Positions 48,515 through 56,072 of a DNA stretch of 64,000 bases are shown here, in pieces. Below the pieces are notes generated by a model that searched no databases, was not told the origin of the DNA, and saw only the letters and a list, made by a program, of their open reading frames with translations. The number at the start of each line of letters is the position of its first letter. Within the stretch, counting starts at the first letter, position 1. The translations under genes were made by a program, and so were the position numbers. Source of the DNA: Archangium sp. (GTDB lineage Bacteria; Myxococcota; Myxococcia; Myxococcales; Myxococcaceae); assembly GCA_030695565.1 (NCBI GenBank), contig JAUYRZ010000074.1, forward strand, positions 124,001 to 188,000. Reading direction: 5' to 3'.

Positions 48515-49126
48515 ATGTACCGCTTCATCCTCCTGTTCGCGCTCGTGGGCTGCGCCGCTCCTCAAGCGCACGGCACGTTGAGCAGCCGAACCCTCGAGGC
48601 CGCGGGTGATCCACTCTGCAGCCACCGCGTGCCTGAGAAGGCGTGCGTCCTGCACCACCCTGAGCTGACCGCCGAGTTCAAGCGCCTGGGCGACTGGTGC
48701 GAGGAACACAGCGTGCCCGAGTCGCAGTGTCTCATCTGCCACCCCGACCTCACCTTCGACGCGCTGCCCACCCTGCCTGAGAGCGCCGACTTGAAGTGGC
48801 TCGCGCGCGAAGGAGAAGCGGTGGGCGACCTGGTGCCGCTCGCGGTGAAGGGCAAGGTGACGGTGTTCGACTTCTACGCCGACTGGTGCGCGCCCTGCCG
48901 CAAGGTCGACCTCTACATGTACGGCGTGTTGTCGCGCCGCACCGACGTGGCCCTGCGCAAGTTGAACGTCATCTCCTGGGAGACGCCGCTGGCCCGCGAG
49001 CAGCTCAAAGACGCCGCGACGCTGCCGCACTTGATCGTGGTCGGCCGCGATGGGCGGGTGATCAAGCGCATGAGCGGTCTCGATCTTCCTGCGCTCGAAG
49101 CGGCCATCGCCGAGGGCGGCTCATGA
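48515..49126 (+). CDS. Thioredoxin-like lipoprotein with Cys-rich metal-binding-like segment
   Basis: 203 aa. Lipobox ALVGC (Cys13). Residues about 35-77 hold C35, C44, C62, C72 and C75 in a pattern (DPLCSHRVPEKAC...GDWCEEHSVPESQCLICHPDL) that resembles the N-terminal segment of adaptor subunits of heavy-metal RND pumps. The thioredoxin fold follows (VTVFDFYADWCAPCRKVDLYMYGVL, active site C125/C128; cis-Pro in ATLPHLIVVG). It is probably a periplasmic thiol reductant. The stop overlaps the start of the TGA-containing OMP gene by 4 bp (ATGA), so the two are coupled. Confidence 0.88.
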   Translation: MYRFILLFALVGCAAPQAHGTLSSRTLEAAGDPLCSHRVPEKACVLHHPELTAEFKRLGDWCEEHSVPESQCLICHPDLTFDALPTLPESADLKWLAREGEAVGDLVPLAVKGKVTVFDFYADWCAPCRKVDLYMYGVLSRRTDVALRKLNVISWETPLAREQLKDAATLPHLIVVGRDGRVIKRMSGLDLPALEAAIAEGGS

Positions 49127-50142
49127 AGCGCTGGCTGCTCCTCTTCGCACTCACCCTCGGCTTCATTCCGCGTCTCGCGGACGCCTGAGCGGGCTGAAGC
49201 AATCCCAACCTCCCGGTCGGGGGGTCTGCCACCACCGAGCTGAAACGCGGCACGCTCCTCATCGGAGCGCGGCTGATGGGCACCACCGTGCGCGTGCAGC
49301 ACGGCATCGCCTGCCCTGACATCGGGCCGGTGTGCGCGCAGCGGGATGAGCCGCCCCAACATCACGATCAACGGTTCTGGATCGCCGAGCTGCGGCTGCA
49401 GGCCGAGTACGCGGTGACGGACTGGCTGGGCGTGGAGCTCCAGTTTCCACTCCGCTCGAGCAGCACCTCGATCACCTACCGCGACCTCGACGGCAACGCC
49501 TTCGTGCCTGATCAACCCGACATCCATCATCGCAACGAGACGTTGTTCGGGGCGGGCGACCCCTGGCTCTCGGCGCGTCTCCGCCAACGTTTCGGCGCCT
49601 TCTCGTTCTCGGGCCGCCTGGGCCTCACGGTGCCGTTGGGCCGCACCGAAGAGAATCCCTTCGCAGCGGGCCGGGCGGGCTTCGAACACCAGCACGTGCA
49701 GTTCGGCACCGGCACCGTCGACCCGCTGCTCGGGCTCGAGGCCGCCCATGCCTGGGAGCGGGTCACGGCGCGTCTCTACGGCCAGGCGCAGCTCTCCCTC
49801 TACCAAAGTGCGAAGTCGTTCCAGGCGGGCTCGCGTTTCGGCGGAGGCGTTGCGGTCGACTTCCAGCTGATCCCCTCGCTGCAGGTGGGCGTGACGGCGG
49901 AGACCCTCACGGAGCTGCCCGAGCGCTGGGACGGCGTGGTGGAGCAGGACGGAAACGTGGGCCGCACCGACGTGTTGTTGGGTCTGGCGGGCGCGTGGAC
50001 CGTCGCCGGATCCACCCTTACGCTCTCGCTGCGTGTGCCGGTGTACCAACACTTCATCGTCACCAGCAGCGACGGCGGCCAACTGAAATACCCCGGCATC
50101 GTTCAGCTCGCCTTCCAGCGGCCCTTCGAGCTGCTCCACTGA
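49123..50142 (+). CDS. Candidate UxxU selenoprotein: outer-membrane beta-barrel protein with two in-frame TGA codons
   Basis: ATG at 49123 opens a perfect signal peptide (MKRWLLLFALTLGFIPRLADA), then in the same frame come TGA (49186-49188), Ala-Gly, TGA (49195-49197), SNPNLPVGGSATTELKRGT and a complete barrel to 50142. Codons 22 and 25 sit where a secreted protein of this kind would have CxxC after the signal cleavage site, and each needs only TGC to TGA. A hairpin with a GGTC loop follows at 49208-49225. Residues after 60 show strand patterns (YAVTDWLGVELQFPLRSSST, FSGRLGLTVPLGRT, LYGQAQLSLYQS). Reading both TGA as selenocysteine gives 339 aa. Otherwise a 21-residue leader and an OMP started at 49276 without a signal would result. 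Inference: selenocysteine; needs sel genes elsewhere. Confidence 0.72.
49208..49225 (+). promoter_or_regulatory. SECIS-like hairpin after the in-frame TGA codons
   Basis: ACCTCCC (49208-49214) pairs with GGGGGGT (49219-49225) over 7 bp (one G-U) around a GGTC tetraloop (49215-49218). The loop starts 17 nt after the second TGA and 26 nt after the first. From memory, the E. coli fdhF SECIS also has a GGUC loop, 18 nt after its UGA, with a bulged U in the stem that is not evident here. Confidence 0.65.
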
Positions 50143-50199: not shown

Positions 50200-50532
50200 G
50201 TGCGCACCCCGTTCACAGCGTTGAAATCAACCGGCCTGCGCTGGCTGGCGGTGCTGCTGTTGTGTGTGGCCGCGCCCTCGGTGCAAGACATCATCGCCGA
50301 CGTCGCCAACTGGACCGACGGCGATTGTTGCTCCGATGAATGTGAAGAGTCGGGCGCTCCTTGTACGCAGCAGTGCATGCATTGCGTCTGCGGCCCGCGG
50401 GTGGTGGCCGCCACATCGCAGTCGTTCATCATGCTTTTGCCCAAGTTCCAGGTGAGCACGGGCACCACCCGCACGCTCGAGTTGCAGTTGAGCGGCCACC
50501 GCGATCCCCCGTTCCGGCCTCCCGTGAGCTGA
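50200..50532 (+). CDS. Small Cys-rich secreted protein of the metal cluster
   Basis: 110 aa from GTG at 50200. The signal is likely TGLRWLAVLLLCVAAPSV. A segment of about 30 residues holds CC, C, C, C and CMHCVCG (GDCCSDECEESGAPCTQQC then MHCVCGPRVV), eight Cys and one His, a likely metal- or metalloid-binding site. The tail is unremarkable. Its position between the candidate selenoprotein and the efflux pump suggests a periplasmic metal chaperone or scavenger. Function unproven. Confidence 0.72.
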   Translation: MRTPFTALKSTGLRWLAVLLLCVAAPSVQDIIADVANWTDGDCCSDECEESGAPCTQQCMHCVCGPRVVAATSQSFIMLLPKFQVSTGTTRTLELQLSGHRDPPFRPPVS

Positions 50533-50577: not shown

Positions 50578-51825
50578 ATGATTTCACTCGTCCCGCGGGG
50601 AATGCCCTCGCGCCTGTTGTGCGTCACCCTTCTTTCTCACGTCGCCGCCGCCGAGCTCGACTGCGCCACCATCACGCGCGGAAACCTCGTCGCCTGCGCT
50701 CAGGCAAACAGCCCTCTGCTCGCCGCCGAGCTGGCCTCGTCACGCGCCGCGGAAGGCCGAAAGGAAGCCGCGCGGCCTTTCCTGCCCACGAACCCGGTGG
50801 TCTCCGGCAGCCTCGCTTCTCGCACGGGCGCTGACGCACGCGCGACGAACTGGTCGGTCACCCTCGCGCAGGAGCTGGAGCTCGCAGGTCAGAGCGGCGT
50901 GCGGGTCGCCTCGGCCGACCAGGAGCTCGAGGCCCAGCGTCAGCAGGTCGAAGTGGCGAAGGCGGCGATCGCCGAACAGGTGTGGCTCGCCTGGTTCGAG
51001 GCGCTCGCGGCGAAAGAACGCGCCGAGCTGGCGGTGCGCATCGAGCAGGCGACGCAGTTGGTCGCCACGACCGTGCAGGGCATGACCTCGCATGGACTGG
51101 CTTCCCCCATCGACGCAGCCGTGGCCGACGCCGCTTCTGTCCGCGCGTCCCGGGCCCGGCTCGAAGCGGCGCGTGATGCGAGCTCGGGTGAAGTGCGTCT
51201 CCGCTCGTTGCTCGGTGCACCTTCACGCCTCGAGGTCGCGGGCCCACTGGAGCCGCTGCGTTCGATTGACGACGTGGCCACCGAGCGCCCCGAAGTGCGC
51301 ACGCTGGAATCGCAGAAGCAGGCCTCGGCCGGCCGCCTCGAGGTGCTGCGCCGCAGCCGGGTGCCCAACGCCACCGTCTCACTCTTCGCGCAGAACGATG
51401 GTTTCGACGAACGGGTGTTCGGCGTGGGCCTGGGCATCCCCATTCCCCTGCCGCAGCCGCTGGGCCGCACCCGGGCCGGTGAAGTCGCCGAGGCGATCGG
51501 CGTGCAGGCGCGGCTCGACCACGAGCTGACGCAGCTCAACCGCACGCTCACCAGCGACCGCGAGCTGGCGAAGGCCGCGTGGGAGAGCGCCGCGCAGACC
51601 CGCGCGCTCTATTCAGGGGAGCGGCTGGAGCGCGCCCGTCAGGGGCTCACCGCCATCTCCGAACAACTCGCCGCGGCCCGCGTGCCGGTGCGCGATGCGC
51701 TCCATTACCAGCAGGTGCTGGTCGAGCTGCTGCAGGCCGACGTCGACGCTCGCTACGCGTTGTGTGTGGCCTCGGTGCGCCTGGTGCGCGCCCGGGGTGG
51801 TTCACTCGAAGGAGGTGCCTTGTGA
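50578..51825 (+). CDS. czcC: CzcC/TolC-type outer-membrane efflux protein
   Basis: 415 aa. The signal peptide is around MPSRLLCVTLLSHVAAA. The outer membrane factor (OEP) repeats are visible as long helices (VTLAQELELAGQSGVRVASADQELEAQRQQVEVAKAAIAEQVWLAWF; SDRELAKAAWESAAQTRALYSGERLERARQGLTAISEQLAAARVPV), including the RTRAGEVAEAIGVQARLDHEL turn. It forms the outer-membrane channel of the tripartite metal efflux pump with the next two genes; the adaptor start overlaps its stop by 4 bp. Confidence 0.9.
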   Translation: MISLVPRGMPSRLLCVTLLSHVAAAELDCATITRGNLVACAQANSPLLAAELASSRAAEGRKEAARPFLPTNPVVSGSLASRTGADARATNWSVTLAQELELAGQSGVRVASADQELEAQRQQVEVAKAAIAEQVWLAWFEALAAKERAELAVRIEQATQLVATTVQGMTSHGLASPIDAAVADAASVRASRARLEAARDASSGEVRLRSLLGAPSRLEVAGPLEPLRSIDDVATERPEVRTLESQKQASAGRLEVLRRSRVPNATVSLFAQNDGFDERVFGVGLGIPIPLPQPLGRTRAGEVAEAIGVQARLDHELTQLNRTLTSDRELAKAAWESAAQTRALYSGERLERARQGLTAISEQLAAARVPVRDALHYQQVLVELLQADVDARYALCVASVRLVRARGGSLEGGAL

Positions 51826-52976
51826 GGTGGTTGCCGTTGGTGCTGGCGCTGGGATGTTCGTGCCCGAAGAGCGAGCCCGCGGAACCGCCGAAAGAAGAAG
51901 CGCACGGTCACGATGATGGCCACGAGGCGCTGCCTCAACACCTGAAGCTCTCGGCCGAAGACATCACGCGCGCGGGCATTCGCACGGCTCCAGTGAAGCG
52001 GGTGGCGCTGGCCTCGACGGTGGTGCTCACCGGTGAGGTGGTGGCTCAGCCCGATCGCAGCGCGAAGCTCTCGTCTGCTTCTCCGGGCCGGCTGGAGCAG
52101 GTGAGCTTCAACGAAGGCACCCTGGTGAAGCGGGGTGACGTGATGGCCACGGTGCGCGTGCCCGACGTGGGCCGGTTGCGGGGCGCCTTCGCGGCCGCCA
52201 ACTCCCGGGCGAAGGCGGCGCGTGCGAACGCCGAACGTTTCATCGCGCTCAAGAGCAGCGGGCTGGGTTCAGACCAGGCGCTGCTCGACGCAGAAGCCGA
52301 CGCGCGGGCGCAGGAAGCAGAAGCCCGTGCGCTGGGGGAACAGCTGGCGGCCATCGGCGTGAACGCAGACTCAGGCTCGGGTTTCCTGGTCGCCTTGCGC
52401 GCGCCGCTCACCGGCGTGGTGGTGATGCGCGACGCGGTGGTGGGGCAGCCCATCAACGCCGAGCACGTGCTGGCCGACATCGTCGACCTCTCCGAGGTCT
52501 GGTTCCTCGGGCGGGTGTTCGAGAAGGACCTGGCCAAGCTGCGAGTCGGCGCGAAGGCAGAGCTGCAGCTCAACGCCTTCCCCGGCGAACACCTGCACGG
52601 CACCGTCGACTACGTGAGCCAGCAGATCGACCCCGTGGCGCGCACGCTCACCGCGCGCGTGCGCATCGTCAACGAAGGCCTGCGCCTCCGCCTGGGGTTG
52701 TTCGGCCGCGCACACGTCGAGCTGGCCGACGCGAGCACCGCGGCGCCGCAGCTGGTGGTGCCACGCGACGCGCTGGTGGAGATCGGTGAGAAGACGGTGG
52801 TCTTCATCAAGGCGGCCGACGGTGACTTCGTGATGCACGAGGTGCAGCCCGGCGACGCGGCGATGGATGACGTGCAGATCCTCTCGGGCATCAGCGAAGG
52901 CGAAGAGGTGGTGGTCAGCGGCGTCTTCACGCTCAAGAGCCTGCTCCTCAAGGCCACCCTCGCGGAGGACGAGTAG
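51822..52976 (+). CDS. czcB: HlyD/CzcB-type adaptor lipoprotein of an RND pump
   Basis: GTG at 51822 overlaps the czcC stop by 4 bp (GTGA); 384 aa. It begins VRWLPLVLALGC, a lipobox, followed by a His/Asp/Glu-rich stretch (EEAHGHDDGHEALPQH) that could bind metal. The lipoyl/barrel-sandwich motif is VVAQPDRSAKLSSASPGRLEQV with FNEGTLVKRGDVMATV; the hairpin has long Ala-rich helices. The beta-barrel domain (VLADIVDLSEVWFLGRVFEKDL) and the membrane-proximal domain follow. It bridges the RND subunit and the channel. Confidence 0.92.
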   Translation: MRWLPLVLALGCSCPKSEPAEPPKEEAHGHDDGHEALPQHLKLSAEDITRAGIRTAPVKRVALASTVVLTGEVVAQPDRSAKLSSASPGRLEQVSFNEGTLVKRGDVMATVRVPDVGRLRGAFAAANSRAKAARANAERFIALKSSGLGSDQALLDAEADARAQEAEARALGEQLAAIGVNADSGSGFLVALRAPLTGVVVMRDAVVGQPINAEHVLADIVDLSEVWFLGRVFEKDLAKLRVGAKAELQLNAFPGEHLHGTVDYVSQQIDPVARTLTARVRIVNEGLRLRLGLFGRAHVELADASTAAPQLVVPRDALVEIGEKTVVFIKAADGDFVMHEVQPGDAAMDDVQILSGISEGEEVVVSGVFTLKSLLLKATLAEDE

Positions 52977-55900
52977 GTGCTCGCGCTGCTTGCCTCCATC
53001 GTCCGGTGGTCGCTGCACAACCGGGTGACGGTCTTGATGGCCACCGCGATCTTCGTGGCCTTCGGCGTTCATTCCGCCATCACCCTGCCCGTCGACGCGG
53101 TGCCTGACGTCACCAACGTGCAGGTGCAGATCATCACGGCCGCGCCCGCGCTCTCCCCGCTGGAGATCGAGCAGTACGTCACCGTGCCCGTCGAGCGTTC
53201 GATGGCGGGCCTGCCGAAGTCGACCGAGGTGCGCTCCATCAGCAAGTACGGCGTGTCGGTGGTGACCGTCGCCTTCGCGGATGGCACCGACATCTACTGG
53301 GCGCGTCAGCTGGTGAACGAGCGCATGGGCGAAGCGCAAGAGGCGGTCAGCGCGCAGTACGGCAAACCCGCGATGGGCCCCATCACCTCGGCCATCGGAG
53401 AGGTGTACCAATTCGTGCTCCGCAACGAGCAGCTCAGCCAGATGGAGCTCGCAGAACAGCTCGACTGGTACATCGCGCCGCAGCTGCGCATGGTGCCGGG
53501 CATCGTCGAGGTGAACAGCTTCGGCGGTGAGACGCGGCAGTACCAGGTGGTGCTGGAGCCGGGCCGTTTGCAGGCAACGGGCGTCTCCATCGCGCAGGTC
53601 ATCGGGGCGCTGCAGAAGTCGAACGCGAACGCGGGTGGTGGCTACATCGAGCACAACCGCGAACACTTCGTCATCGGCACCGACGGCCTGGTGAAGAGCC
53701 TCGACGACGTGAGGCGCGTGGTGATCGGCGCGACGCCGCAGGGAGTGCCCATCACCGTCGACACCGTGGGCGAGGTTCGTTTCGGCGCGCGGCTGCGGCG
53801 TGGGGCGGCGACCAAGAACGGAGACGGCGAGGTGGTGGTCGGCGTGGTGTTGATGCTGCTGGGAGAGAACGCGCGCGAAGTCACCGAGGCCGTGAAGGAG
53901 AAGCTGAAGGCGCTCGAGCCCACGCTCCCACCGGGCACGCGCATCGAGCCGTTCTACGACCGCGCCGCGATGGTCGATCGCACCATCACCACGGTGGGCA
54001 TCAACCTGCTCGAGGGCGCACTGCTGGTGATGCTGGTGCTCTTCCTGCTGCTGGGTGACTGGCGCGCCGGCGTGGTGGTGGCCGTGACGATTCCCCTGTC
54101 GCTGCTCTTCGCGGTCACCGTGATGAACGCCTTCGGGCTCTCGGGGAACCTGATGAGCCTGGGGGCGATCGACTTCGGGCTGCTGGTGGATGGCGCGGTG
54201 ATCATCGTGGAGAACGCGGTGCGCCGCTTGAGTGAGCGGCAGCAGGCGAGCCCCACGGTGCTCACCGACGAAGAGCGCGCGAGCGTGGTGGAGAGCGCGA
54301 CGCTCGAGGTGCGGGCCGCCAGCGTGTTCGGTGAGGCGATCATCGCCATCGTGTACCTGCCGGTGCTCGCGCTCATCGGTACCGAGGGGAAGCTGTTCAG
54401 ACCGATGGCCACCACCGTGCTGCTCGCGTTGCTGGGCGCCTTCATTCTGTCGATCACCCTGGTGCCAGTGCTCACCAGTCTGCTGGTGAAGCCGTCTCGT
54501 GAGCACGAGGACACCTGGCTGCTGCGCAAAGCCCACGCGCTGTACCGGCCGATGTTCGCCAAGGCGATGCAGCACCGCGTGCTCACGGTCAGCGCGGGCG
54601 TGCTGTCGCTGGTGCTCGCGGTGGTGTTGTTCACGCGGCTGGGTGCGGAGTTCATTCCTCAGCTCGACGAAGGCGATCTGTTGATCGAGGCCCGCCGCCT
54701 CACCGGCGCCGCCTTGTCGGAGTCGGTGCGCACCGATCTGCTGCTCGAGAAGGAGCTGCTGAAGATCCCCGAGGTGGAGCAGGTCATCGCGCGCACCGGC
54801 TCTCCACAGGTGGCGACGGACCCCATGAGCATCGAGGCGTCCGACATCTACATCGAGCTGCGGCCACCGAAGACCTGGCGCCCCGGCGTCTCGAAGACCG
54901 ACTTGTCCGAGCAGGTGGAGGCGGTGCTCGCCCGTTCGCCGGAAGTCGGAGGCGCCATCTCGCAACCGATTGAGATGCGAACCAACGAGTTGATTGCCGG
55001 CATCCGCTCCGACGTGGGCGTGCTGATCTACGGGGGGGATCTCGAGAAGCTCGCGGCCCTCGGCGAACAGACGGCCGCGGCGTTGCGCAAAGTACCCGGC
55101 GCAGTGGACGTGCGCGTCGAACAGGTCGCGGGCCTCGAGTACCTGCGCGTGACGCCCGATCGAAACCGCCTCGCGCGCTACGGCCTCACCATCGAAGACG
55201 TGAACCAGGTGACCGAGACCATCGCGGTCGGTGCACCGGTGGGCCAGGTGCTGGAGGGAGAACGGCGCTTCGGCATCGTGGTGCGCACGGCCCATCACTT
55301 CACGGGCGATCTCGAGGCGCTGCGCTCGTTGCCGCTCCGGTCGATCAGCGGCCAGGTGGTGCCGCTGGGCGACGTGGCCGACCTGCACTTCGTCACCGGC
55401 CCCGCGCAGATCAGCCGCGAGGCCCAGTCACGCCGGCTGACCGTGGAGTTCAACGTGCGCGGGCGGGATCTCCTCTCGGTGGTGCGAGACGCGCAACGTG
55501 CGACGGCCGGGGTGAAGCTGCCGGTGGGCTACCGCGCCGAGTGGGGCGGCCAGTTCAAGCACTACCTCGATGCCCGCGCGCGGCTGGCGGTGGTGGTGCC
55601 GGTCGCGCTCGCGCTCATCCTCTTTCTCTTGTGGCTCACCTTCGGCTCGCTGCGCACCGGCCTGCTCATCTTCTTGAACGTGCCCTTCGCGGTGGTGGGC
55701 GGCGTGGCGGCGCTCGCCTTGCGCGGCATTCCGTTCTCCATCTCGGCAGGCGTCGGCTTCATCGCGCTCTTCGGCGTGGCGGTGCTCAACGGCCTGGTGC
55801 TCATCGCCTTCGCGCGCGACCTCGAAGCGACCGGGGTGGGTCACGCAGAGGCCATCGCGCGCGCGGCAGATGGGCGACTGCGGCCGGTGTTGATGACCGC

Positions 55901-56072
55901 GTTGGTGGCTTCCTTAGGCTTCGTGCCGATGGCGCTCTCCACCGCGCCGGGCTCAGAGGTGCAGCGCCCGCTGGCCACGGTGGTCATCGGTGGGCTCATC
56001 TCGGCCACGCTGCTGACGCTGTTCGTGCTTCCAGTGCTCTACGCCTGGTTCATGCCGAGCCGAAAAGCGTGA
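52977..56072 (+). CDS. czcA: CzcA-type heavy-metal RND efflux transporter
   Basis: 1031 aa from GTG at 52977, directly after the adaptor stop. Twelve membrane helices in two repeats with large periplasmic loops. The fourth helix carries the HME-RND signature GAIDFGLLVDGAVIIVEN, with D399, D405 and E412, equivalent to the proton-relay residues of CzcA. This indicates proton-driven export of divalent cations (Zn, Co, Cd, Ni type) rather than Cu/Ag, but the metal is not certain. It completes a czcC-czcB-czcA tripartite pump beside the thioredoxin-like and candidate selenoprotein genes. Confidence 0.95.
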   Translation: MLALLASIVRWSLHNRVTVLMATAIFVAFGVHSAITLPVDAVPDVTNVQVQIITAAPALSPLEIEQYVTVPVERSMAGLPKSTEVRSISKYGVSVVTVAFADGTDIYWARQLVNERMGEAQEAVSAQYGKPAMGPITSAIGEVYQFVLRNEQLSQMELAEQLDWYIAPQLRMVPGIVEVNSFGGETRQYQVVLEPGRLQATGVSIAQVIGALQKSNANAGGGYIEHNREHFVIGTDGLVKSLDDVRRVVIGATPQGVPITVDTVGEVRFGARLRRGAATKNGDGEVVVGVVLMLLGENAREVTEAVKEKLKALEPTLPPGTRIEPFYDRAAMVDRTITTVGINLLEGALLVMLVLFLLLGDWRAGVVVAVTIPLSLLFAVTVMNAFGLSGNLMSLGAIDFGLLVDGAVIIVENAVRRLSERQQASPTVLTDEERASVVESATLEVRAASVFGEAIIAIVYLPVLALIGTEGKLFRPMATTVLLALLGAFILSITLVPVLTSLLVKPSREHEDTWLLRKAHALYRPMFAKAMQHRVLTVSAGVLSLVLAVVLFTRLGAEFIPQLDEGDLLIEARRLTGAALSESVRTDLLLEKELLKIPEVEQVIARTGSPQVATDPMSIEASDIYIELRPPKTWRPGVSKTDLSEQVEAVLARSPEVGGAISQPIEMRTNELIAGIRSDVGVLIYGGDLEKLAALGEQTAAALRKVPGAVDVRVEQVAGLEYLRVTPDRNRLARYGLTIEDVNQVTETIAVGAPVGQVLEGERRFGIVVRTAHHFTGDLEALRSLPLRSISGQVVPLGDVADLHFVTGPAQISREAQSRRLTVEFNVRGRDLLSVVRDAQRATAGVKLPVGYRAEWGGQFKHYLDARARLAVVVPVALALILFLLWLTFGSLRTGLLIFLNVPFAVVGGVAALALRGIPFSISAGVGFIALFGVAVLNGLVLIAFARDLEATGVGHAEAIARAADGRLRPVLMTALVASLGFVPMALSTAPGSEVQRPLATVVIGGLISATLLTLFVLPVLYAWFMPSRKA

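Follow-up and report, generated by a model that had tools for sequence, protein, structure and literature searches.

A putative SECIS hairpin shared by two UGA codons in an apparently unlisted family of outer-membrane channel selenoproteins in the Myxococcota

The window considered here is a stretch of 64,000 nucleotides from Archangium sp. On its forward strand it contains a gene (49123–50142) that starts with the ATG at 49123, ends with the stop codon at 50140–50142, and has a reading frame interrupted only by two TGA codons, at 49186–49188 (UGA1) and 49195–49197 (UGA2). Are both codons read as selenocysteine (Sec), and can the one hairpin following them serve both? The initial annotation suggested that it might, while considering such decoding mechanistically unusual. 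Our analysis indicates, with a probability of about 0.87, that the hairpin is a bacterial SECIS element for both UGAs and that the gene represents an apparently unlisted family of outer-membrane channel selenoproteins with a UxxU motif.

The gene, its product and its homologues

The translated product has 339 amino acids and reads MKRWLLLFALTLGFIPRLADA-U-AG-U-SNPNLPVGGS..., with Sec predicted at positions 22 and 25. The segment 49123–49185 encodes a signal peptide of the AxA type, as read from the translation, with the predicted end directly before U22; similarly, in most homologues the [U/C]xx[U/C][S/T]NPxL block comes after such a signal peptide. AlphaFold2, supplied with the family alignment, yields a barrel (mean pLDDT 83, pTM 0.81) and a signal helix, the N-terminal segment carrying UAGU being poorly determined. 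The best match among solved folds is the COG4313 channel (PDB 4rl8, Z 24.6, 2.5 Å over 245 residues), followed by FapF (Z 22.6). The barrel fold is alike in all three, but the identity is only 12–15%; a profile search against the PDB chains gave no sequence match for the channel protein, and Pfam produced only a sub-threshold barrel match. The protein is presumably exported, and UAGU is predicted to lie at the mature N-terminus of an outer-membrane channel. Five histidines (H60, H81, H136, H189, H191) are invariant in the alignment; it is a guess that together with UxxU they form a set of metal or metalloid ligands.

The upstream gene (48515–49126, the same strand) encodes a thioredoxin-fold protein with a WCAPC active site (Pfam Thioredoxin PF00085, 3.8e-6, above the cut-off). 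Its N-terminus resembles a lipoprotein signal (LVGC, the lipobox being read by eye), and its stop codon overlaps the start of the channel gene as ATGA. Thioredoxin homology adjoins the channel gene in 18 of 20 loci, mostly upstream and with the ATGA overlap. Moreover, in four homologues (L027, L029, L030, L031) the frame continues past the barrel into a thioredoxin domain with FDFWAxWCxxC, and since the two are fused there, the barrel and the thioredoxin seem to be functionally tied. The motif, be it UxxU, CxxU or CxxC, is probably redox-active or metal-binding at the channel and serviced by the adjacent or fused thioredoxin-fold partner. Downstream of the channel gene there is a small Cys-rich ORF (50200–50532), followed by genes for TolC-like, membrane-fusion and CzcA-like RND efflux proteins (50578–56072). 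The efflux genes were rejected as functional partners, as their homologues do not adjoin the channel gene in other loci.

A search of 99 relatives and 195 genomes of the phylum Myxococcota produced 24 genes with the N-terminal motif, including the one in the window. Twelve of them are of the UxxU form, nine are CxxU and three are CxxC, so that the codon at the UGA1 position is TGA in 12 genes and TGC in 12, while at the UGA2 position TGA occurs in 21 and TGC in 3. No residue other than Cys or Sec is seen at either position; the in-frame UGAs thus align with conserved cysteines of the homologues, which is the mark of a selenoprotein. The scan of genome contigs gave one locus (L032), whose motif region is identical in sequence to that of L018, and a plasmid search with the channel protein gave nothing. 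The dN/dS values downstream of the UGAs are 0.22–0.43.

The genome of the window (8.5 Mb) contains tRNA-Sec (69 bits, above the gathering score), SelA, SelB and SelD, that is, the set by which Sec-decoding organisms are recognized. SelB and tRNA-Sec are present in every genome bearing a homologue except G170, which has the CxxC form and is 69% complete. Two genomes with the barrel gene of the CxxC form (G016, G032) retain SelA, SelB and tRNA-Sec, and also carry a formate dehydrogenase gene whose frame contains a TGA (Sec-FdhA).

The hairpin in the window and in related genes

Re-reading of the letters confirmed the two TGAs and the hairpin ACCUCCC-GGUC-GGGGGGU (49208–49225, forward strand), in which 49208–49214 pairs with 49219–49225 and the GGUC loop occupies 49215–49218. 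Between UGA2 and the loop there are 17 nt, and between UGA1 and the loop 26 nt. The bSECIS model describes a stem-loop in the coding region with an apical loop 16–37 nt past the UGA, the minimum free energy (MFE) of at most −7.5 kcal/mol, and a G within the first two loop positions (PMC13188914). With the energy of −11.1 kcal/mol, the hairpin agrees with this model in energy, spacing and loop, and both distances lie within the range, as the initial annotation had supposed.

By its own features the hairpin stands out only moderately in this GC-rich window and is not decisive. About one in ten (10%) of the 1793 TGAs on both strands of the window is followed by a hairpin that fits the bSECIS model with −7.5 kcal/mol or below, and 4.6% by one with −9.7 or below. 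If the GGUC loop is required in addition to the latter cut-off, two TGAs are left, and these must be UGA1 and UGA2, since each passes the test. Among 49 TGA-N6-TGA pairs in the window only UGA1 and UGA2 share a hairpin that strong, two other pairs sharing weaker ones (−7.8 and −8.5). Folding, which had been proposed as a check, did not help: the 60 nt from UGA1 fold no better than shuffled sequences and the MFE structure takes a different pairing, hence single-sequence folding is no proof of the hairpin. An Rfam scan of 48900–49500 yielded nothing relevant. As the hairpin of the window does not decide the matter by itself, the decision rests on comparison of homologues.

The 18 Sec genes whose hairpin has the GGUC loop align without gaps, and 93.3% of cells in the 7-bp stem are paired. 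The column pair 24–39 is C-G in nine genes, G-C in four and U-A in four, and is broken in none; the pair 27–36 also occurs in three types (C-G, G-C, U-A); the pair 23–40 is A-U or C-G and is unpaired in eight. The covariation score is 0.355 and falls to 0.01–0.07 when one side of the stem is slid by 1–3 columns. The stem is thus conserved in the TGA-containing homologues through compensatory changes. The pair 23–40, the seventh of the stem, is present in most UxxU genes and missing from most CxxU genes; we set it aside as a signal distinguishing these forms, since it tracks the tree and two genes (L031, L026) break the pattern.

A hairpin was found in all Sec forms, although shortened in one. 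Three deeper UxxU homologues from other families of the Myxococcota (L049–L051) have a slightly shifted hairpin with the loop CGGG(U/C), of 7 bp in two cases and of 5 bp in L050, which fails the strict energy cut. In these lineages SelB may recognise a different loop. Equal conservation in Cys-containing homologues would have argued against the element, but the hairpin is missing from all three CxxC forms. The codon choice shows the same: valine is encoded by GTC in 18 of 18 Sec forms of the GGUC type, against the usage of 26%, and the arginine after the loop by AGG or AGA in five of five Sec forms, against 4%, whereas in the nearer Cys forms (L020, L023) the same residues are encoded GTG GGC CGC. 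On the other side, some of the pairing arises from the coding constraint alone, and single-sequence z-scores are modest in the UxxU forms. Further, the sequences are related, and hence independent events are far fewer than sequences.

The SECIS element of E. coli fdhF has a GGUC loop. The window hairpin shares this loop and the G at its start, but lacks the bulged U, in agreement with the initial annotation. In fdhF this nucleotide, U17, is required for SelB binding (PMC8659212). The register with U49211 bulged, the 17th nucleotide from UGA2 as in fdhF, has 74.5% of cells paired against 93.3% for the unbulged one, and was rejected on covariation.

The lack of the bulge is explained by the formate dehydrogenases of the same lineages. 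The FdhA SECIS in seven relatives has a 7-bp stem, the GGUCU loop beginning 18 nt past the UGA, and no bulged U; hence the local SECIS grammar, which is lineage-specific and unlike that of E. coli as far as these sequences tell, seems to be GGUC at 17–18 nt without a bulge. The Sec-type formate dehydrogenase loci of these relatives are L099:1708 and L102–L108; the window's own genome gave no match to their FdhA. The window hairpin is like the FdhA elements in the loop and the absent bulge, and its distance from UGA2 differs from theirs by 1 nt (17 vs 18). As its position relative to UGA2 fits the local grammar, the comparison argues that it is a real bacterial SECIS at the canonical distance from UGA2. 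The difference from FdhA is that it would also serve a UGA situated 9 nt farther upstream, at 26 nt.

A probable single element for two UGA codons

No candidate element other than the shared hairpin lies within 16–37 nt from UGA1, the weaker matches being registers of that hairpin. On the tree, the CxxU form requires two changes and the hairpin is retained in both CxxU lineages, while the CxxC genes form two separate lineages, neither of which has the hairpin. Hence the hairpin is present where UGA2 is, and UGA1 appears to make use of the hairpin of UGA2. By exclusion and by this evolutionary pattern, we infer that UGA1 is decoded through the shared hairpin.

Decoding might proceed as follows. 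SelB carrying Sec-tRNA would bind the GGUC hairpin; the ribosome would halt at UGA1 with the hairpin ahead still folded, and the first Sec would be inserted. Three further translocations would bring UGA2 into the A site, the hairpin being still outside the ribosome or at the mRNA entry. SelB would presumably be reloaded between the two codons, so that insertion of the second Sec falls to another SelB ternary complex bound to this hairpin, and only then would the hairpin be melted and translated as NLPVGG. In E. coli, Sec decoding proceeds at 30–40% per UGA (PMC4513850), and at this efficiency two UGAs in a row would cost yield. It is conceivable, although we hold it only tentatively, that a ribosome passing once uses the one hairpin for both UGAs in turn and that the first insertion aids the second, so that Sec decoding in bacteria would be processive.

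Three alternatives to decoding of both UGAs through the hairpin were considered. If only UGA2 were decoded, UGA1 would mostly terminate translation, and the UxxU copies would be either decaying or subject to a selenium-dependent off switch. The distance of 26 nt, 8 nt beyond the 18 nt seen in FdhA of the lineage, and the replacement of UGA1 by Cys in nine genomes with an intact hairpin are compatible with that. However, 26 nt falls within the bSECIS range, UGA1 is kept in 12 genomes spanning several families and orders with Cys as the sole alternative, and in UxxU pairs purifying selection acts on the barrel downstream (dN/dS 0.25–0.42), and we regard this reading as improbable. To the same low degree we credit the possibility that UGA1 is read not through the shared hairpin but through a nested GGG...CCC helix or by near-cognate read-through. 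RNAalifold does add a GGG/CCC helix enclosing UGA2, but this helix shows no compensatory change, on which ground it was rejected as a second element; moreover, it is too near UGA1 for the 16–37 nt rule and would sit under the ribosome. No other conserved candidate hairpin is in range, and Cys in the homologues favours Sec over Trp. Finally, translation could start after the UGAs, for example at the ATG at 49276, from which a mechanical ORF of 288 aa runs, with neither UGA read. Such a start would lose the signal peptide needed by an outer-membrane barrel, the methionine is not conserved, and the covarying hairpin and the conserved CAGCSNPNLP block would be left unexplained; this is highly improbable.

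Relation to known selenoproteins and implications

The channel protein had no match in an NCBIfam search, nor is such a protein entered in the catalogue of 2026 (PMC13188914), which covers 119 families of prokaryotic selenoproteins. Hence the channel with two Sec residues apparently forms a new, unlisted selenoprotein family. Two catalogued outer-membrane selenoproteins, GSU2204 of the MtrB/PioB type (NF041027) and the FCYXU TonB receptor (NF049945), are similar in location, but have a single Sec (PMC13188914). Other predicted bacterial UxxU selenoproteins are a Prx-like thiol:disulfide oxidoreductase, the metal-binding protein NF041115 and the FmdB family (PMC13188914). These resemble the channel protein in having two Sec with two residues between them, but judging by their names they are not barrels. 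Given that spacing, they presumably also use one element, and since the catalogue contains such families, two close Sec under one element are already known in kind, which partly softens the initial view of this arrangement as unusual. Our literature searches found no paper testing two close Sec under one element in bacteria, and none on SECIS elements or selenoproteins of the Myxococc- group.

The UxxU, CxxU and CxxC genes can be compared within one phylum with the hairpin position fixed, and form a natural experiment, which is unusually clean as evolutionary evidence for two UGAs being served by one SECIS. With this gene set one can directly test the distance over which a bacterial SECIS acts on a UGA, and also whether a ribosome can make use of one element a second time. 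If the hairpin is indeed reused sequentially, the myxobacterial SelB would accept distances between UGA and SECIS that differ by about 9 nt, as compared to the single spacing seen in FdhA.
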